From Deltaproteobacteria bacterium (GTDB taxonomy: Bacteria > Myxococcota_A > UBA9042 > DTJE01): a stretch of 64,000 nt of DNA. This document shows, piece by piece, positions 19,157 to 30,607 of the stretch (position 1 is its first letter; each line of letters begins with the position of its first letter). The notes below the pieces were generated by a model. It made no database searches. It saw nothing but the letters and a program-made list of their open reading frames with translations, and was not told where the DNA came from. A program made the translations under genes and the position numbers. The stretch spans positions 62,001 to 126,000 of the forward strand of contig JAKPOP010000010.1 of assembly GCA_029547805.1 (NCBI GenBank). The letters are read 5' to 3'.

Positions 19157-21307
19157 TCAGGTCCCGGGGCGGTGGGTGCCCCGGGCCACGAAGTCCGACA
19201 GGACCTGGAACAGGCGAGTCTGGACCTCCGGGTCCTCCAGGGGACGGCGCTCGCCGGGATCGGTCACCACGTCGTAGAGCAGCAGTTCGTCGGACGACAT
19301 GTCCCACATCAACTTGTACGGCCCCTGGTAGATCGCCTTGCGGTACCGGAGGATCCCCTCGTTGTTCACCATCAGTTCAGTGAAGATCGGGCGGTTCGGG
19401 AAGGGATCCTGCCGATCGAGGTAGTGGAACAGGCTGTATCCCTGGGGTTTCGGTTCCTCGGGGCGCAGCCCCAGGGCATCCATCAGCGTCGGGAAGACGT
19501 CAATCAGGGAGACCCGGGTCTTCACCCGCCGGGGCTCCTGGCCCGGGATCCGGACAACCAGCGGGATCCGCACGCTCTCGGCATGGAGCGTCCGGCTGTG
19601 CTGGCTGCCCCCGTGCTCCTGGAACTCCTCGCCGTGGTCCCCGAAGACCACCACGATGGTGTCGTCCATCAGTCCCTCGGTCTGCAGGTACTCCAGCAGC
19701 AGCCCCACGTATCGATCGGCATAGGCCAGTTCCTGGTCGTAGAGGTCCGAGGGGCGGTTGCCGAAGGACTGGAAGCCGTCGTGGGGCACGTAGGGGTAGT
19801 GGGCCGCCTCGAAGTGGGCATAGAGCAGGAAGGGACGTTTGGAGTCGCGTTGCATGAGTTTCTGGACGGCATCGAACAGCGTGAAGGGTCCGGCCTTCTG
19901 GCCGTATTCCCGCCAGTGGCCCAGGCCGTAGGCCACGTCCATCTTCTGGAACCCCCGCATGACCGTCGGCAGGAACTTCAGCAGCCACTCGTCGGCCACG
20001 GCCAGGGTCTGCCAGCCGGCGTTGAGCAGGACCTCCGCCAGCAGGCCCTGGGAGACCGAGACCTGCCGGACTCGCGCCTCGCCCTCCCAGGCGATCCCCG
20101 AGTCGTAGCGCCCGGTGAAGAACGGCGGGATGGACTCCCGGGTGGTCGAGGAGGGAGCGATCACGTTCTCGAACACCCAGGAGGTGCGGGCCAGGGCCTC
20201 GATGTTCGGGGTGGTCTTTCGTCCGTACCCCAGAAACGAGGCCCGGTCCGCCCGGAAGGCATCGACGCAGATCAGGACCACGTTGAGCCGCCTGCCCTCC
20301 TCGGGGGTCAGCGCGTAGGAGGAGGCCGTCTGAGCCTCCGCCTGCCCCGCATCCTCTCCGTCGCAGTTCTGGTCCACCCCGTCGCCGGGGTCGTCCACCG
20401 CGCCGGGATACCGGAGGTAGTCCAGGTCGTCGCAGTCCCCGCCGCCCAGGATCGGGCTCGCCCGGTCCCCGTCCAGGTCCACCAGATCCCGGATCTTCAT
20501 GAGTACCTGGGCGGCGAAGGAGGCCCGCCCGGCGGCCCATCGCACCCCGGCCGGATCCAGGCGGGAGGTCCCCTCGGCCAGGGCCAGGGAGACCAGCGGA
20601 ATCCCCACCCCCAGGGCCAGCCACCGGGTCCAGAGCCGGAGCCCCAGGCGCAATGCCGTGGGCCACGCAGGCCATGCCAGGCCCAGGGCCGGAAGAAGCA
20701 GCAGCAACGTCCCGACGGCGGTCCACGGCAGGAGCCCCTGAAGCCCCCCCGCGCGGAACCGCCAGGACAGGAAGGTCCCCCAGGCGATCAGGACCCCGGC
20801 GTCCAGGAGGCCCAGCAGCCGGGACGCCCCCCACGAGGACCCGAGGCCCAGGCGTCCCGCCACGGAGACCAGCAGCGCCCCGGCCACCCCGCCGGCAGCC
20901 AGCAGTCCCATCGCCCCGGTGGCCAGCAGCAGGCTCCGGAGGCTCGGGTCCGTCACCCGCTCCAGGGCGGGGGCCCCCAGGGCGATCCCCAGGGCCAGGG
21001 TCGGCAGCACCGCCAGCAGCCACAGCAGCGGTGCGTTCCAGGTCCACGGGGAGACCCGGGACTGCAACCTCGTCGTCTGGGAGACCCCCATCGCGAGGAC
21101 CAGCCCCAGGGGAAATCCCCAGACCAGGTGCAGCAGCAGGCTGATCAGAATTCCCGATGCGGCGCCCGGGGTCCCATCCCCCAGAAGACCCGGGATCGCC
21201 CCCAGGTCCAGAGCCCCCGTGGCCAGAGAGGCCGCCATCACCCAGGCCAACGGCCCGCCCATGCCCCCGCCGTCGTTCCCGGTGGCCTGTGGTCGCCCTT
21301 GTGTCAC
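19157..21307 (-). CDS. Membrane-anchored sulfatase-fold enzyme
   Basis: An alkaline-phosphatase-superfamily enzyme of 716 residues. I start at GTG 21307, behind GGAGG; upstream ATGs (21349, 21332) lack one. Residues 15-270 hold about seven membrane segments. Near 289 comes an acidic metal-motif (GGGDCDDLDYLRYPGAVDD and DGVDQNCDGED) like MopE repeats. The catalytic domain (residues 340-700) has metal ligands VLICVDAFRAD and FGDHGEEFQEHGG. The nucleophile region is APSSTTRESIPPFFTG and lacks the Cys/Ser-x-Pro-x-Arg needed for formylglycine. A Ser or Thr nucleophile, as in lipoteichoic-acid or phosphoethanolamine transferases, is more likely than a true sulfatase. Confidence 0.87.
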   Translation of the reverse strand: MTQGRPQATGNDGGGMGGPLAWVMAASLATGALDLGAIPGLLGDGTPGAASGILISLLLHLVWGFPLGLVLAMGVSQTTRLQSRVSPWTWNAPLLWLLAVLPTLALGIALGAPALERVTDPSLRSLLLATGAMGLLAAGGVAGALLVSVAGRLGLGSSWGASRLLGLLDAGVLIAWGTFLSWRFRAGGLQGLLPWTAVGTLLLLLPALGLAWPAWPTALRLGLRLWTRWLALGVGIPLVSLALAEGTSRLDPAGVRWAAGRASFAAQVLMKIRDLVDLDGDRASPILGGGDCDDLDYLRYPGAVDDPGDGVDQNCDGEDAGQAEAQTASSYALTPEEGRRLNVVLICVDAFRADRASFLGYGRKTTPNIEALARTSWVFENVIAPSSTTRESIPPFFTGRYDSGIAWEGEARVRQVSVSQGLLAEVLLNAGWQTLAVADEWLLKFLPTVMRGFQKMDVAYGLGHWREYGQKAGPFTLFDAVQKLMQRDSKRPFLLYAHFEAAHYPYVPHDGFQSFGNRPSDLYDQELAYADRYVGLLLEYLQTEGLMDDTIVVVFGDHGEEFQEHGGSQHSRTLHAESVRIPLVVRIPGQEPRRVKTRVSLIDVFPTLMDALGLRPEEPKPQGYSLFHYLDRQDPFPNRPIFTELMVNNEGILRYRKAIYQGPYKLMWDMSSDELLLYDVVTDPGERRPLEDPEVQTRLFQVLSDFVARGTHRPGT

Positions 21308-21491
21308 ACCGCCTCCACGGGACGGAAGCATAGGACACGGAACCGTCATCTTCAAGGTAGGATTGGCCGACCTGCTCCCGGAGGACCCCGATGGACCTGA
21401 ACCTCTACCGCCGCTGGTTCGCCCTGCCCCGAACTTGTGCCTCAGGCAAGTCGAACCTACACTCGGGGCCGATCCCTTGAAGGATGCATCG

Positions 21492-22757
21492 ATGCGGTCC
21501 CTCGCGATTCCCCAGCACCGTTCCAGGATGTCCCCCGGGTGGGCTCTGGCGGCCGCCCTCGGAATGGCGGTCGTGCCGTCCCCGGGATGCGAACCCGGGG
21601 ACTCGGGGGCGGCGGACCCGGGCCGTGGGACCGATCCACCCGGGACCTGCGAACCGGCCCCGGCCACCTGCGAGGAAGACGAGGTCGTCGCCTGCATCGA
21701 CGGCGCGGTGCAGCGGACCGACTGCGGCGCCGAGGCCTACTGCAACGGGGGCCGCTGCGAGCCAACCTCCATCCGGTTTCCCCGGGACGCGGGAATCCAC
21801 GCCGAGCGCACCGAGTGGTGGTACTACACGGGACACCTGCGGGACGGGAACCGGGAGTGGGGCTTCCAGGTCACCATCTTCCAGTATGACTTCACCGAGA
21901 TGTTCGGCACCCCGGGGCTCGGCTGGATGTGCCACGTGGGGGTCGTGGACCTCGAGGCCGGGGAGCACTTCCACGCCGACACGATCTCCCTGGCCCCTGC
22001 GACCTGGAGCCAGGACCCCATCGACCTCCAGGTCGATTTCTGCCGCCTGGAGATCGGGGGTGATGGCCGGGACCGGATCCGGGGCGAGATTCCCCAGGGC
22101 AAGGAAAAGGACGGCAAGGCGTCCCCCTGGGCCTTCGACCTGGTCCTGGAGCCGCGGAAGCGCCCGGCCCGCCACGGAACCGACGGGATCATCCCGATGG
22201 CCGACAGCGGCGGGACCAGCTGGTACTACTCGTTCACCCGGCTTCAGGCCCAGGGCACGCTGTCCACGCCCTCGGGCGAACACGCCGTGACCGGCCAGGC
22301 CTGGATGGACCACCAGTGGGGCGACTTCGACATGCAGGACTTCAAGGGCTGGGACTGGTGGAGCATGCAGTTCGACGACGGCTGGGAGGTCATGCTCTTC
22401 CAGTTCACCGACTGGGATGGGGTCCTGTGCCTGAAGGCCGGGACGCTGGTGGCCCCCGACGGGACCCTGACGCCCCTGGAAGGCATGGACGCCTTCACGA
22501 TCACCCCCCGGCGCCACTGGACGAGCCCCCACTCGGGAGGCATCTACCCGCTGGACTGGGACGTGGTGATCCCCCAGGGGGACTGGCGCATCTCGGTGGT
22601 GACCTCTGTGGAAGACCAGGAGATGCATAACCTCGCCCAGAACTACTGGGAGGGACAGACCCGCCTGTCGGGCACTGCCGGAGGACGGGTGCTGTCCGGG
22701 GAGGGCTACACCGAGTTGACCGGCTACGCGGTGGACGCCCTGGACCCGCCCCGGTGA
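21492..22757 (+). CDS. AttH/CrtC-like lipocalin-fold lipoprotein
   Basis: ATG 21492 follows GAAGGA by seven bases. Residues 1-33 look like a lipoprotein signal, ending SPGC (a weak lipobox), followed by a short Cys-rich segment. From about 95 the protein matches the carotenoid-hydratase/AttH family: RTEWWYYTGHLR, WGFQVTIFQY and MDHQWGDFDMQDF are the usual landmarks. These double-lipocalin proteins bind hydrophobic ligands; only CrtC is proven to hydrate carotenoids, and no carotenoid genes lie here. I therefore expect lipid or hydrophobic-ligand handling in the envelope. It is divergent from the sulfatase-fold gene. Confidence 0.85.
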   Translation: MRSLAIPQHRSRMSPGWALAAALGMAVVPSPGCEPGDSGAADPGRGTDPPGTCEPAPATCEEDEVVACIDGAVQRTDCGAEAYCNGGRCEPTSIRFPRDAGIHAERTEWWYYTGHLRDGNREWGFQVTIFQYDFTEMFGTPGLGWMCHVGVVDLEAGEHFHADTISLAPATWSQDPIDLQVDFCRLEIGGDGRDRIRGEIPQGKEKDGKASPWAFDLVLEPRKRPARHGTDGIIPMADSGGTSWYYSFTRLQAQGTLSTPSGEHAVTGQAWMDHQWGDFDMQDFKGWDWWSMQFDDGWEVMLFQFTDWDGVLCLKAGTLVAPDGTLTPLEGMDAFTITPRRHWTSPHSGGIYPLDWDVVIPQGDWRISVVTSVEDQEMHNLAQNYWEGQTRLSGTAGGRVLSGEGYTELTGYAVDALDPPR

Positions 22758-24651: not shown

Positions 24652-25089
24652 ATGGCCTCGGACCGATGGACCCTCCAGGTGGGACCCGACCTGCCCGTCG
24701 AGGGGGTGCTGGCCCTGTACCGCGCGGCCGGGTGGTGGCAGGAGGGCGAGGACCCCTCGGCCATCCCGGCCATCCTCGGCGGTTCCGTGGTGGTCGTCTC
24801 GGCCTGGATCGGCGACGGACTGGTGGGCATGGGACGGGCCCTCGGAGATGGGACCTCCGACGCCTACATCCAGGACGTCGTCGTGCTGCCGGCACACCGG
24901 GGCCAGGGCATCGGCCGCGCCCTGGTGGCCCGACTCCGGGACGAGTGCCTGGCCCGGGGGATCCGGTGGATCGCCCTGGTGGCCGAGCCGGGCACCGTCC
25001 CCTTCTATGAGTCCCTGGGCTTCCGGCCGATGGAGGGCCACGTCCCGATGCGGTGGCGCCCATCTGAGGACGGAGGGACGACTCCATGA
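24652..25089 (+). CDS. GNAT-family N-acetyltransferase
   Basis: A 145-residue single-domain acetyltransferase. The acetyl-CoA loop RGQGIGRALV is near 83-92, after the strand AYIQDVVVLPAHR, and the C-terminal VPFYESLGF is typical. The acceptor (an amine on a protein or small molecule) cannot be deduced. Its TGA overlaps the ATG of the DUF2156 gene, so the two are co-translated. Confidence 0.9.
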   Translation: MASDRWTLQVGPDLPVEGVLALYRAAGWWQEGEDPSAIPAILGGSVVVVSAWIGDGLVGMGRALGDGTSDAYIQDVVVLPAHRGQGIGRALVARLRDECLARGIRWIALVAEPGTVPFYESLGFRPMEGHVPMRWRPSEDGGTTP

Positions 25090-25994
25090 CCGGCCAGGAC
25101 CTCGCCGCCGCCCCCTGGGCCCCCTTCCGGCCCGAGGATCGGGACCTCCTGGCCCCCCGGTTCCGGACTCCGGGCCATCCCCTGTGCGAGTACACCTTCG
25201 CGACCCAGTTCTGCTGGCAGGGGTGGAACCACAGCCTGTGGGCCCTCGTGGAGGATTTCCTGTTCGTCCGCTACGTGGAACGGGGACGGCTGGGCCTGAT
25301 TTGCCCCTGCGGGTCCGGCGACCTGGCCAGGGCCCTCGATGCGACGATGCAGTTCCTGGAGCGGGAGGGCCACGAACCCCGGGTGGACTTCGTGCCGGCC
25401 TCCGTGGCCAGGCAGCCCGCCATCGCCGAGCGGTTCGTCGCCGAGGACCATCCCGACGATGCGGACTACTGGTATCGCCGGGAGGACCTCGCGGAACTCC
25501 CGGGCCGGCGCTATGCCGACAAGCGAAACCACATCGCCCGGTTCCTCCGGGCCGGGTTCGACTGGCGCTTCGAGCCGGCGTGCCTGAGCGACCCCGCCGA
25601 GGCGATGGCCTTTCTGCAGGAGTGGTGCCGCAGTCACGACTGCCAGGGCGACCCGCGGCTCGACTTCGAGGTCCAGGCCCTGGGGACCTGCCTTGCGCAC
25701 CGGGAGGTCCTGGGTCAGCGCTGCTGGCTGCTCCGGGTGGACGGCCGGGTGGTCGGGCTGGTCCTCGGGGAGTTTCTGGACTCCCAGTCCTTCGTCGTGC
25801 ACTACGAGAAGGCCTTCCAGGACATCCCGGGGGCCTACGCGATGCTGGTCCGGGAGACGGCTCGGGCCCTGGCTCCCGAGGGCGTCCTCTGGATCGACCG
25901 CGAGCAGGACATGGGCATCCCGGGCCTCCGGCGGAGCAAGCAGTCCTGGAACCCCGTCCGCCTCGAGATGGCCTGCGTGCTGCGGCCCCGGTAG
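25086..25994 (+). CDS. DUF2156 (LPG synthetase C-terminal-like) acyltransferase protein
   Basis: This 302-residue protein resembles the catalytic domain of lysyl-phosphatidylglycerol synthetases (two GNAT folds). Landmarks are DYWYRREDLAELPGRR, KRNHIARFLR and the C-terminal DREQDMGIPGLRRSKQSW. Stand-alone forms without membrane helices are common, and their substrate is not settled. It is translationally coupled to the GNAT gene by an ATGA overlap. The hsdR gene begins 174 bases later, across the border of the accessory island. Confidence 0.85.
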   Translation: MTGQDLAAAPWAPFRPEDRDLLAPRFRTPGHPLCEYTFATQFCWQGWNHSLWALVEDFLFVRYVERGRLGLICPCGSGDLARALDATMQFLEREGHEPRVDFVPASVARQPAIAERFVAEDHPDDADYWYRREDLAELPGRRYADKRNHIARFLRAGFDWRFEPACLSDPAEAMAFLQEWCRSHDCQGDPRLDFEVQALGTCLAHREVLGQRCWLLRVDGRVVGLVLGEFLDSQSFVVHYEKAFQDIPGAYAMLVRETARALAPEGVLWIDREQDMGIPGLRRSKQSWNPVRLEMACVLRPR

Positions 25995-26168
25995 GTTCCG
26001 GGGGACTCCCATTTCTTTCTCCCCTTTTCCCACAGGGCGACATGCGGTAGAAAACCCCACGAGGAGGAAGCCCTTGCCCTTGACGCAGCGTGGATGGAGC
26101 CGGCGCTTCGATGGCCCGCCCACGGCGTCCCTGGGCCGCGACCGGTGGGCTTTCTCCGGAGAGGTGAG

Positions 26169-29066
26169 ATGGTGATCCCGTCCCTCACCCCCGAACAACT
26201 GGCCCGCGAGAAGATCGACGCCATGCTCGCCGCCTCCGGCTGGGTTGTTCAGGACCGCGCCGAGATGAACCTTTCGGCGGGCGCGGGCGTCGCGGTGCGG
26301 GAGTTCCCCCTGGCCACGGGCGAGGCCGACTACCTGCTGTTCGTGAACGGCAAGGCGGTCGGCGCGCTGGAGGCCAAGAAGATCGGACACACCCTGAAGG
26401 GGGTCGAGGTCCAGTCGGGCAAGTACTCGGTCGGTCTGCCACCGGGCCTCAACCCGCCCGTGACCCCGTTGCCCTTCCTGTACGAGTCCACCGGCGTCGA
26501 GACCCAGTTCACGAACCTGCTCGACCCGGACCCCCGCAGCCGCCCGGTCTTCGCGGTCCACCGTCCCGAGACGCTGGTCGAGTGGCTCGCCGCCGACACC
26601 CTCGACGCATGGGTGAAGGCCCTGCACGCGGAGGGCTCCGGCCTGTACACGACCGCCGACGATACCCGGCCATCGTCCCTGCGGTCCCGTCTTCGGGCCA
26701 TGCCGCCGCTCACCCAGCCCAAGGAGGGCGCCGGCTGGCGGCTCTACCCGAACCAGATCCAGGCCATCGAGAACCTCGAACAGTCGCTGAAGAAGGACCG
26801 GCCCCGTGCGCTCATCCAGATGGCCACGGGGTCTGGCAAGACCCTGATGGCGATCACGGCCATCTACCGGATGATCAAGTTCGGGGGTGCCCGCCGCGTC
26901 CTGTTCCTCGTGGACCGCACCAACCTGGGCGAGCAGGCCGAGAAGGAGTTCCAGAACTACCGCACGCCGGACGACAACCGGAAGTTCACCGAGTTGTACA
27001 GGGTGCAGCGGCTCACCTCGAACTCCATCGGGGCCTCGTCCAAGGTGGTCATCACGACCGTGCAGCGGTTGTACTCCATGCTGCGCGGGGAGGCCGAGTT
27101 CGACCCGGTCCAGGAGGAAGGTTCGGCGTTCGAGTCGCCCGACCCCTTGATGAAGGAGCCCTTCCCGGTCACCTACAACCCGGCCTACCCGCCGGAGACC
27201 TTCGACGTCGTCTTCGTGGACGAGTGCCACCGCTCCATCTACACCCTGTGGCGGCAGGTGCTGGAGTACTTCAGTATGCCCGACGGGGGCGAGGCGTTCC
27301 TCGTGGGCCTGACCGCGACCCCCGCAAAGCACACCTTCGGGTTCTTCAACCAGAACCTGGTGATGGAGTACCCCCACGAGCAGGCCGTGGCCGACGGCGT
27401 GAACGTGGACTTCGAGGTCTACCGCATCCGCACCCGCATCACCGAGCAGGGCTCGACCATCGAGGCGTGCAACGAGCCCATCGTGGGCCTGCGGAACCGG
27501 AAGACCCACCAGATGCGATGGCAGGCCCCGGACGAGCCGATCACCTACACCGGGGACGACCTCGACCGCGCCGTGGTGGCCAAGGACCAGATCCGCACCG
27601 TCGTCCGCACCTTCCGGGACCGCCTGTTCACCGACCTGTTCCCGGGCCGGACCGAGGTGCCCAAGACCCTCGTCTTCTGCAAGGACGACGCCCATGCCGA
27701 GGACGTGGTCGGCATCATTCGGGAGGAGTTCGGCTGGGGGAACGCCCGGTGCCAGAAGATCACCTACCGGACGACCGGCAAGAAGCCCGCCGACCTGATT
27801 CAGGAGTTCCGCAACTCCTACGACCCCCGCATCGCGGTGACCGTGGACATGATCGCCACCGGCACCGATATCAAGCCGGTCGAGATCGTGATGTTCTTGC
27901 GTCCGGTCAAGTCCCGCGTGCTGTTCGAGCAGATGAAGGGCCGGGGCGTGCGCGTCATCGACCCGACCGAGTTGAAGGCCGTCACGCCCGACGCCACGGC
28001 CAAGACCCACTTCGTCATCGTGGACTGCGTGGGCGTGGTCGAGTCGGGCCTCTCGGACACCTACCCGTTGGAGAGGAAGAAGTCGGTGCCGTTGAAGTCG
28101 CTGCTGGAGCACGTGGCGATGGGCGGAACGGACCCTGACGTGCTGTCCTCGCTCGCCTCCCGGCTGGCCCGGCTCGACAAGGAGTGCGGCCCGGAGGAGG
28201 ACCAGAAGATCAAGGCGGCCTCAGGCGGGGTGACGCTGCCGGACATCTGCCACCGCATCATCGACGCCCTCGACCCCGACCGGCAGGCCCAGGCCGCGCG
28301 GGTCCAGTTCGGGATCGTGGGCGACGCGGAGCCCACGGAGAAGCAGGTCGCGCAGGCCGCCGAGGCCCTCTGCAAGGCCGCCGTGGCCCCGCTGGCGAAC
28401 AACCCGGGCCTGCGGCAGACCCTCCTCGACCTGAAGGCCGCCCTGGAGCAGGTGATCGATGAGGTCTCCAAGGACGAGGTGGTCTTCGCCGGGGCCTCGC
28501 CCGAGGCCAAGGACAAGGCCCGCGCCCTGGTGGCCTCCTTCGAGGCGTTCCTCGCGGAGCACCACGAGGAGATCGACGCCCTCCAGTTCTTCTACTCGCA
28601 GCCGTACTCGAGGCGACTGCGCTACCGGGACGTGAAGGCCCTGGCGGAGGTCATCAAGGCCCCGCCCCGGTCGTGGACCCCCGAGGTGCTGTGGCGGGCC
28701 TACGAACTGCTGGAGAAGGACCGGGTGCGGGGGGCGTCGGGACGCCGCCTGCTGACCGACATCGTGTCGCTCGTCCGGTTCGCCCTGCACCAGCAGCCCG
28801 TGCTGGAGCCCTTCGGGGAGCAGGTCCGGGTGCGGTTCCAGAACTGGATGGCCCAGCAGGAGATGCGGGGCAGGCGGTTCACCCCCGAGCAGGTTCGGTG
28901 GCTGGAGATGATGCGGGACCACGTGGCCGCGAACGTCGAGATCGAGGTCGAGGATTTCGACCTGAACCCCTTCGCGCAGGAGGGCGGGCTCGGCCGCGCG
29001 TCTCAGGTGTTTGGTAGTGAACTGCCGGTCGTGCTGAAGGAACTGAACGAGGCGTTGGCGGCATGA
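26169..29066 (+). CDS. hsdR: Type I restriction enzyme subunit R
   Basis: The translocating and cleaving subunit of a type I restriction-modification complex; it cuts unmodified DNA at a distance. ATG 26169 follows GGAGAGG and gives 965 residues, normal for the family. The PD-(D/E)XK nuclease is near 52-70 (EADYLLF, then ALEAKK). The helicase follows with Walker A MATGSGKT (217-224), the DECH box VFVDECH (348-354), SAT-like LVGLTATPAK, and the arginine motifs TGTDIKPVE and MKGRGVRVID. The C-terminal part (from about 640) is the helical region that joins HsdM. It is the first gene of a tightly overlapping row. Confidence 0.95.
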   Translation: MVIPSLTPEQLAREKIDAMLAASGWVVQDRAEMNLSAGAGVAVREFPLATGEADYLLFVNGKAVGALEAKKIGHTLKGVEVQSGKYSVGLPPGLNPPVTPLPFLYESTGVETQFTNLLDPDPRSRPVFAVHRPETLVEWLAADTLDAWVKALHAEGSGLYTTADDTRPSSLRSRLRAMPPLTQPKEGAGWRLYPNQIQAIENLEQSLKKDRPRALIQMATGSGKTLMAITAIYRMIKFGGARRVLFLVDRTNLGEQAEKEFQNYRTPDDNRKFTELYRVQRLTSNSIGASSKVVITTVQRLYSMLRGEAEFDPVQEEGSAFESPDPLMKEPFPVTYNPAYPPETFDVVFVDECHRSIYTLWRQVLEYFSMPDGGEAFLVGLTATPAKHTFGFFNQNLVMEYPHEQAVADGVNVDFEVYRIRTRITEQGSTIEACNEPIVGLRNRKTHQMRWQAPDEPITYTGDDLDRAVVAKDQIRTVVRTFRDRLFTDLFPGRTEVPKTLVFCKDDAHAEDVVGIIREEFGWGNARCQKITYRTTGKKPADLIQEFRNSYDPRIAVTVDMIATGTDIKPVEIVMFLRPVKSRVLFEQMKGRGVRVIDPTELKAVTPDATAKTHFVIVDCVGVVESGLSDTYPLERKKSVPLKSLLEHVAMGGTDPDVLSSLASRLARLDKECGPEEDQKIKAASGGVTLPDICHRIIDALDPDRQAQAARVQFGIVGDAEPTEKQVAQAAEALCKAAVAPLANNPGLRQTLLDLKAALEQVIDEVSKDEVVFAGASPEAKDKARALVASFEAFLAEHHEEIDALQFFYSQPYSRRLRYRDVKALAEVIKAPPRSWTPEVLWRAYELLEKDRVRGASGRRLLTDIVSLVRFALHQQPVLEPFGEQVRVRFQNWMAQQEMRGRRFTPEQVRWLEMMRDHVAANVEIEVEDFDLNPFAQEGGLGRASQVFGSELPVVLKELNEALAA

Positions 29067-30607
29067 CCGAGTTCGAGCAAAGCGAGCACTACCCCATCGA
29101 CCTCGACCACCTCCCGAAAGGTTGGGAAGTAGCGTGGGTGGGTGACCTCTGCCAGTCCATCCAGTCGGGCTTCGCCAGCGGCGAGCACAACTCGGACGGC
29201 ATTGGGGTGCCTCATCTACGACCGATGAACGTGGATCGCGGCGGTCGCCTCAACCTTACCGAGGTGAAGCACGTCCTACCGTCGAGCGACGCTCGTAGGT
29301 TGGCCCGGGGGGATGTGCTGTTCAACAACACGAACAGCCCAGTGTTGATCGGGAAGACCTGCCCCATCATGACCGACCGGGAACTGGCGTTCTCGAACCA
29401 CATGACGCGATTGCGCCCCGGGGAGGGGATCGACACCCGGTTCCTCGCGCACGAACTTCACTACCTCTGGATGGCTGGGTTCTTCCTCCACAAGTGCCAG
29501 AAGCACGTGAATCAGGCAAGCATCTCGACCGACGTGCTGGCCTCGACCGTTCCCCTCGCGGTGCCGCCGACTCCCGAGCAGCAGCGCATCGTGGCGGCCA
29601 TCGAGGACTACTTCTCGCGGCTGGACCAGGCGGTGGCCCTGCTGGAGCGGGTGCAGCGGAACCTGAAACGTTACCGGGCCTCGGTCCTGAAGGCCGCCGT
29701 GGAGGGCCGGTTGGTGCCCACAGAGGCCGAACTCGCCCGTGCCGAGGGTCGGGACTACGAGCCCGCCAGCGTGCTGCTCCAGCGCATCTTGGAGGAGCGC
29801 CGCCGCCGCTGGAAGGCCGAGGGTCGCCGGGGCACCTACAAGGAGCCAGTGGCCCCGGACACCTCCAACCTCCCCGAGTTGCCCGAGGGCTGGTGCTGGG
29901 CCTCCCTTCCCCAACTGGGTGAACTAAATCGGGGCAAGTCGAGGCATCGGCCTAGAAACGACGCCCGGCTTCTTGGTGGTCCCTACCCGTTCATCCAGAC
30001 GGGCGAGGTCCGGCGGTCTGAAGGATTCATCGAGACCCACGATGCCACCTACTCGGAGTTCGGACTTGCCCAGAGTCGGCTTTGGCCGAAGGGAACCCTC
30101 TGCATCACCATCGCAGCGAACATCGCCGCGACGGGCATCCTGAAGTTCGACGCCTGCTTCCCGGATAGTGTGGTTGGCTTCCTGAACACGGAGGAACCGC
30201 TGCTTACTCGGTACTTGGAGTTGTTCATCCGCACCGAACGCGATGAACTTACTCGCTTCGCTCCGGCAACGGCCCAGAAGAACATCAACCTAGAGACCCT
30301 CCGGGACGTTGCGGTTCCGCTCCCCCCCGCTGCTGAGCAAGTGCGACTGGTCGGGGAGATTGATCGTCAACTCTCGGTAATCCGACAACTGGAAGCCTCC
30401 GCCGAGTTGGGAATCGCCCGGATTGCCCGCACCCGCCAGTCCATCCTGAAGTGGGCCTTCGAGGGCCGCCTCGTGGACCAGGACCCGACCGACGAGCCCG
30501 CCCACGTCCTGTTGGACCGCATCCGGGCAGAGCGCGCGACGCGGCAGGGGGCTCCATCCCGAAGGAAGGCCGGTCGTGGGCCGACTCGTCGAGCCGAGGT
30601 CGGGTAA
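29063..30607 (+). CDS. hsdS: Type I restriction enzyme specificity subunit S
   Basis: This subunit reads the two-part DNA target for both methylation and cleavage. Its start overlaps the hsdR stop (ATGA). Two target-recognition domains are seen, each opened by a PxGW phrase (LPKGWEVAWV near 17 and LPEGWCWASL near 273) and each closed by a conserved helical spacer (TPEQQRIVAAIEDYFSRLD near 170; AEQVRLVGEIDRQLS near 415). Fourteen-residue basic tail. The two domains differ from each other, so the target is not a repeat. It precedes the cyclase-like gene with no gap. Confidence 0.95.
   Translation: MTEFEQSEHYPIDLDHLPKGWEVAWVGDLCQSIQSGFASGEHNSDGIGVPHLRPMNVDRGGRLNLTEVKHVLPSSDARRLARGDVLFNNTNSPVLIGKTCPIMTDRELAFSNHMTRLRPGEGIDTRFLAHELHYLWMAGFFLHKCQKHVNQASISTDVLASTVPLAVPPTPEQQRIVAAIEDYFSRLDQAVALLERVQRNLKRYRASVLKAAVEGRLVPTEAELARAEGRDYEPASVLLQRILEERRRRWKAEGRRGTYKEPVAPDTSNLPELPEGWCWASLPQLGELNRGKSRHRPRNDARLLGGPYPFIQTGEVRRSEGFIETHDATYSEFGLAQSRLWPKGTLCITIAANIAATGILKFDACFPDSVVGFLNTEEPLLTRYLELFIRTERDELTRFAPATAQKNINLETLRDVAVPLPPAAEQVRLVGEIDRQLSVIRQLEASAELGIARIARTRQSILKWAFEGRLVDQDPTDEPAHVLLDRIRAERATRQGAPSRRKAGRGPTRRAEVG

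Follow-up and report, generated by a model that had tools for sequence, protein, structure and literature searches.

The gene at 19157-21307 of the window (the whole stretch of 64,000 nucleotides of DNA that was analysed) encodes a membrane enzyme of the alkaline phosphatase (AP) superfamily with a predicted threonine nucleophile, a sulfatase-like scaffold and a MopE-type juxtamembrane hairpin, its chemistry being probably familiar. The protein is an ordinary member of a group with both hairpin and enzyme domain, and this group is a widespread uncharacterised myxobacterial family. The function that we favour, with a probability of about 0.55, is that of an inner-membrane transferase of phospho-head-groups, working by a ping-pong mechanism and with its catalytic domain outside the cytoplasmic membrane.

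The gene is a minus-strand frame that begins with a GTG codon at 21307, with a GGAGG sequence four bases upstream, and the frame remains open upstream as far as an ATG at 21697. Both the GTG and the GGAGG were kept in the orthologue L003, which is 82% identical, and the GTG was taken as the start because of this conserved context. In the protein, about seven predicted transmembrane helices (residues 18-248) come first; two short helices, the MopE-type hairpin (277-319) and a linker follow, and a PF00884 domain ending in an SGSH_C-type part (339-716) closes the chain (Table 1). Strong purifying selection acts on the enzyme domain (dN/dS against L003 of 0.047/0.483). The corresponding values were 0.076/0.23 for the hairpin segment and 0.24/0.521 for the membrane part, which is under much weaker constraint and is the least constrained part of the protein.

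Table 1. Features of the gene and of the encoded protein, with their positions in the window.
Feature	Position	Strand	Basis
Complete gene, 716 aa, GTG start, stop 19159-19157	19157..21307	minus	Open frame; GGAGG-GTG context kept in orthologue L003
Putative ribosome-binding site GGAGG	21312..21316	minus	Sequence; same in L003
Membrane part, residues 18-248, about 7 predicted helices	20564..21256	minus	Models; low confidence, block pLDDT about 45-73
MopE-type Asp/Cys hairpin, residues 277-319, with C292 and C315	20351..20479	minus	PF11617; in 44/110 family proteins
AP-superfamily catalytic domain, residues 339-716	19160..20293	minus	PF00884, PF16347; fold matches
D349, predicted metal ligand	20261..20263	minus	Among 110 family rows D 102, E 6, gap 2; EptA, OpgE and OpgB have E
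T389, predicted nucleophile	20141..20143	minus	T 105, S 3, M 1, gap 1 of 110 family rows
H503, predicted phosphate-binding His	19799..19801	minus	H in 109/110 family rows
D557-H558, predicted metal ligands	19634..19639	minus	Each kept in 109/110 family rows
H570, predicted phosphate-binding His	19598..19600	minus	H in 109/110; 13 residues past D557, cf. D465 to H478 in MCR-1

The PF00884 (Sulfatase) model matched residues 342-613 with 143.5 bits (E 1.1e-41), and the SGSH_C-type C-terminal part was also found. To this domain 110 AP domains of the family, the one of the window included, were aligned together with six proteins of E. coli K-12. T389, the second Thr of the segment APSSTTRES, fell in the column of the Thr of E. 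coli EptA, OpgE and OpgB, which is also that of the Ser of AslA (SSPTR) and of the Cys of YidJ (CTPAR). As this column holds both the sulfatase Ser or Cys and the Thr of EptA, OpgE and OpgB, the predicted nucleophile is in place and it is a threonine. The Thr-type site is complete in the window protein (D349, T389, H503, D557, H558 and H570, that is, DTHDHH), its six residues are all intact in the orthologues L003-L006, and the set D/E-T-H-D-H-H is intact in 43 of the 44 hairpin proteins. In the work on MCR-1 (PMC8593676), that enzyme uses T285, E246, D465 and H466, and H395 and H478 lie near the phosphate in a docking model.

On this arrangement of residues a mechanism may be proposed. A metal coordinated by D349, D557 and H558 would activate T389, which, assisted by H503 and H570, would attack a lipid phosphodiester, for example that of phosphatidylethanolamine or phosphatidylglycerol. 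A phospho-threonine intermediate would then form, and the phospho-head-group would be passed to a second envelope molecule, a ping-pong scheme as postulated for MCR-1. The hairpin, which follows the last helix and precedes the enzyme domain, is most likely a spacer stiffened by a disulfide and by a divalent metal, perhaps calcium, which would hold the domain over the membrane. Sequence alone does not separate a transferase from a hydrolase, nor phosphoglycerol from phosphoethanolamine as the group handled.

The original prediction had described a seven-helix membrane part. A part with several helices was indeed found; the number seven is that of the structure model, which places helices at residues 18-42, 48-80, 87-116, 121-152, 158-186, 195-211 and 224-248, with best 19-residue hydropathy means of 1.5-2.3, whereas a plain hydropathy scan (19-residue windows, threshold 1.6) gave four helices only. 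Folded alone, the N-terminal part reached a pLDDT of 67 and its best PDB match (E 2.7) was not significant. If all the seven modelled helices span the membrane, the topology would be N-in/C-out and the catalytic domain would lie outside the cytoplasmic membrane. A membrane part of 4-9 predicted helices, as in membrane transferases with lipid donors, was found in 23 of the 24 hairpin-bearing loci among the best 80 of 312 related loci; the remaining one, L050, starts at a contig edge.

The main rival to the transferase, which we consider possible rather than probable, is a membrane-anchored phosphodiesterase or phosphatase of the Thr type, with the same phospho-Thr chemistry and water as the second acceptor. 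The multi-helix membrane part of the hairpin-bearing loci speaks against it, but 39 of the 56 hairpin-less loci in the same set of 80 have one or no predicted transmembrane helix, which fits hydrolases. The fold of the enzyme domain points in the same direction. The AlphaFold model of the window protein had a mean pLDDT of 76.8, most of the enzyme domain being above 85, and its best 50 fold matches (Z 34.4-41.0) lay nearly all inside residues 335-716. The first of them was the S1 sulfatase 6hr5 (Z 41.0, rmsd 2.6, 351 aligned residues); the phosphonate monoester hydrolases 4uph (Z 36.5) and 2vqr (35.0), a Vibrio AP-superfamily protein (3lxq, 35.8) and YejM (6vc7, 34.4) followed lower down. EptA and LtaS were not among the best 50 matches listed, an absence that proves nothing. 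At the sequence level, the best PDB match was also a sulfatase (7ebp, E 1.9e-19), ahead of the LTA primase (5.8e-10) and LtaS (2.9e-9), so S1 sulfatases and phosphonate monoester hydrolases resemble the scaffold more closely than LtaS does. In addition, PF01663 (Phosphodiest) matched the window protein and 32 of the 38 members of one alignment (A2). The SGSH_C-type C-terminal part, the low confidence of the transmembrane model and the weak constraint on the membrane part also count against the transferase, as does the gene neighbourhood, in which no family suggests a lipid or glycan pathway.

The neighbourhood was compared in 30 loci by crude gene calls clustered by BLAST, and none of the neighbour families obtained names a substrate. 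In the window, the gene is followed on the same strand by that of threonyl-tRNA synthetase (thrS) and preceded by a divergent gene for a CrtC/lipocalin-type protein. The widest neighbour family besides the enzyme occurred in 6 of the 30 loci; the three members tested are protein kinases by Pfam, two of them above the PF00069 cut-off. The thrS gene was present in 5/30 loci, directly downstream in the window and in G001 and farther off in L122, L037 and L048. Another family was found in five loci (L044, L046 and L123-L125), and the four members tested matched Dicty_CTDC repeats; in L123 (6958-8598), L124 (13071-14705) and L125 (2159-3727), all on the minus strand, these genes lie 0.5-1.3 kb downstream of the orthologue and on the other strand. 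The remaining families occurred in at most 4 of the 30 loci. About 4 kb from the studied gene, the window also contains a plus-strand frame (25086-25994) with an LPG_synthase_C domain (PF09924), of the aminoacyl-phospholipid synthase type, with a GNAT gene (24652-25089) just upstream of it. Two adjacent plus-strand frames at 26094-30607 read, by eye from their translations, like HsdR and HsdS of a type I restriction system.

That the protein is a catalytically dead regulator like YejM/LapC is very unlikely. YejM is also an AP-superfamily domain in a membrane protein and, as said, appeared among the fold matches, but E. coli LapC no longer has the ligand set (DTNGRH against DTHDHH), and the intact six residues of the window protein and of L003-L006 argue for an active enzyme. 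Loss of the site has taken place within the family: the hairpin-bearing member at L049:9350-11578, from the Myxococcales MAG NP1036, has D-M-Q-T-R-gap in place of DTHDHH, T389 being lost together with the D-H-H set, and is likely a pseudoenzyme comparable to YejM/LapC.

A sulfatase working without formylglycine is a still poorer candidate, in spite of the PF00884 and SGSH_C matches and of a fold nearest to S1 sulfatases. The window protein resembles S1 sulfatases and phosphonate monoester hydrolases in overall fold and C-terminal part, and differs from them in its Thr nucleophile and in the lack of the formylglycine motif, of the +4 Arg and of GKWH. The original prediction had noted that APSSTTRESI falls outside C/S-x-P-x-R and had concluded that the protein should be no sulfatase, and the alignment bore this out: [CS]xPxR was found in none of the 110 family rows (L031 being gapped there), 105 of them having Thr in the nucleophile column, and the window protein reads T389-R-E-S-I. 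The column of the +4 Arg holds I, L, V, M or F in 43 of the 44 hairpin proteins. Of the Lys and His of the GKWH of YidJ and AslA, the first is D in the window protein and the second falls in a column gapped in 110/110 rows, the letters GKW being present in L050 only. After the first ligand Asp, AslA has an Asp where the window protein has Ala350. Judged by the absence of [CS]xPxR together with the complete Thr-type site, the window protein is not a formylglycine sulfatase. The SulfAtlas authors found Thr at the nucleophile place in 30 of 59 PF00884 seed proteins, stated that no case of formylglycine derived from Thr has ever been demonstrated, and held that uncharacterised Thr-type PF00884 proteins of the TXNXE type cannot be counted as functional sulfatases without experiment (PMC5066984). 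As the motif of the window protein is TRESI and not TXNXE, this verdict carries over by analogy only.

Kinship with the known transferases was examined in a quick tree, in which 44 of 111 inner branches were open, the six E. coli rows were long branches, L031 had been dropped beforehand and LtaS was not included. One fork (support 88) united the 44 hairpin proteins, 18 further proteins and OpgB, the place of OpgB within this larger clade being unsure because of its very long branch. The forks of EptA with OpgE (97) and of AslA with YidJ (92) stood apart from it. The clade of the window protein consisted of five orthologues (support 100). The only other protein of the same genome above the PF00884 cut-off, L002 on contig C15, is also of the Thr type (E-T-H-D-H-H); it joined L028 and L030 (support 85) within a fork of five rows (90) that also holds L029 and LapC, the latter on a long branch. 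All the 19 NCBIfam matches of the window protein were far under the cut-offs (P_eth_NH2_trans, 24.2 bits against 500; LtaS, 48.1 against 970).

EptA and OpgE of E. coli have membrane helices ahead of the enzyme domain, five in number against about seven in the window protein. They share with it the Thr in the nucleophile column, E/D-T-D-H metal ligands and two further His. The window protein differs from both in its first ligand, which is Asp and not Glu, in its separate tree branch, in the MopE hairpin, in having C347 as the only Cys of the enzyme domain and in a host with no lipid A pathway found. LtaS also has a Thr nucleophile, and LtaS and OpgB are membrane-anchored; with the window protein they share the AP-superfamily fold, and OpgB the Thr in the same column, while OpgB has a gap at the column of H570. 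The window protein is thus not an EptA orthologue, with sequence and fold nearest to S1 sulfatases and a position outside the EptA/OpgE branch. Taken together, sequence, fold, tree position and sub-cut-off NCBIfam scores indicate a membrane-anchored protein in which a transferase-like active site is set in a scaffold like that of sulfatases. These results uphold in part the original prediction of a phosphoglycerol or phosphoethanolamine transferase: the Thr nucleophile fits the phospho-transferase type, but membership of the EptA group is not supported, either by the quick tree with its long branches or by the search for a lipid A pathway, which found none, and S1 sulfatases matched the sequence better than LtaS did.

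The acidic Cys/Asp segment that had been compared with MopE calcium motifs does match the model PF11617 (Cu-binding_MopE), at residues 291-319. The match is borderline, with 26.6 bits in hmmscan, just below the cut-off of 27 bits, and 32.0 bits, above the cut-off, in a six-frame search of the genome. In the family, hairpins were identified by a regular expression that demands D.D.D, a Cys and D..C.G, so that in alignments A3 and A4 the invariance of most hairpin positions follows from the selection itself. The expression makes no demand on the residue preceding the first Cys, which was Asp in 44/44 hairpin proteins. Alignment A1 (14 rows) was also chosen with the motif, by a looser expression. 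L050 was left out of A3, and L038, L047, L049, L050 and L099 were left out of A4; L007 and L112-L114 are absent from the alignments. The only PDB match of the hairpin up to E 10 was MopE* (chain residues 6-50, E 1.6e-4). In sequence the hairpin is like MopE of Methylococcus capsulatus; in the window protein it occurs once and is joined to an enzyme. In two reports on MopE*, its 46 N-terminal residues are invisible in the crystal and weak Cu(II) binding is linked to residues among the first 24 (PMC3423442, PMC3912023); calcium protected the protein from proteolysis (PMC3423442), and the calcium site of CorA and MopE* was considered to have a stabilising, structural role (PMC3912023). As these 46 residues are missing from the crystal structure, the sites for Cu(I) and calcium seen in it should lie outside the hairpin-like part of MopE*.

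At least 143 PF11617 matches were found in the genome of the window, often several in one large frame, and none in 14 control genomes; these come from 150 scored of 242 candidates with E up to 0.001, and not all are above the cut-off. Contigs C4, C12, C19, C23, C25, C31 and C32, among others, carry them. By these matches the PF11617 motif is a common module of this lineage. The DxDxD run and the two cysteines suggest a small spacer stabilised by metal and disulfide, and a structural spacer, perhaps binding calcium, seems likelier than a sensor, metal binding being predicted. A built-in metal sensor, as had been proposed, found no backing: the hairpin is at a fixed site between the membrane part and the enzyme domain, the same motif is repeated throughout the genome, often within one frame, and nothing points to sensing.

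The junction of hairpin and enzyme start was searched across the phylum as one profile, counting matches that run from position 10 or earlier to position 130 or later. It was found at full length in at least 57 of 140 sampled genomes, a lower bound, from 18 families and with several copies in some genomes; named carriers include Myxococcales, Polyangiaceae, Kofleriaceae and Lujinxingia. The 80 related loci mentioned above are the best of 312 from a scan in which the hairpin pattern was one of two baits, so their 24 hairpins give no unbiased rate. A search with protein only found hairpins by the regular expression in 19 of 28 loci (L003-L031, without L007, whose frame is cut) and by a looser expression in 22; L013 and L019 have shortened versions. 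No description of a hairpin-enzyme fusion was found in the literature searched, whose coverage was incomplete.

With regard to the acceptor, no LpxC was found in the genome of the window (96.7% complete), nor in 51 of the 52 genomes of the class, this one included, nor in 32 of the 33 of them with a completeness of 90% or more and a contamination of 5% or less. LpxB was likewise absent from this genome and from 50/52 of the class. The same LpxC search was positive in 65 of the 140 genomes of the phylum, so the method works in this group. The lineage is probably without lipid A, and the missing LpxC speaks against lipid A as acceptor, which is unlikely. Least likely of all is a lipid A phosphoethanolamine transferase with EptA function, since the shared nucleophile and ligand pattern, the sub-cut-off NCBIfam matches to EptA/MCR models and the presence of LpxC in 17 of the 57 junction genomes are set against NCBIfam scores so far under their cut-offs, an EptA and OpgE branch (on long branches) away from the clade of the window protein, and the missing LpxC and LpxB.

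For the transferase that we favour, a possible donor is phosphatidylethanolamine, which is probably made, as the genome encodes a phosphatidylserine decarboxylase. The acceptor may be, as a guess, an outer-membrane lipid or glycan taking the place of LPS; Sorangium cellulosum is reportedly a myxobacterium lacking LPS, to go by the title of a 2011 article by Keck et al. Across the phylum, LpxC was missing from 40 of the 57 junction genomes and from 35 of the other 83, in which it was present in 48 (Fisher p 0.002, uncorrected for kinship and genome completeness, the junction list being a lower bound). A bolder reading, which we hold to be a long shot, is a Myxococcota-wide family that puts phospho-head-groups on non-LPS outer-membrane lipids or glycans in lineages without lipid A, its activity or position being controlled by metal binding to the hairpin. 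The 40 junction genomes without LpxC fit this reading, and the 17 with LpxC fit it poorly.

In conclusion, the label 'sulfatase' that PF00884 gives to this protein is contradicted by its active site, a known weakness of annotation by this model. Since a MopE-type hairpin is here joined to a membrane enzyme, the protein would also allow a concrete test of the role of this widespread motif. Finally, if it is truly a transferase, the protein would be a candidate for envelope decoration in diderm bacteria without lipid A.
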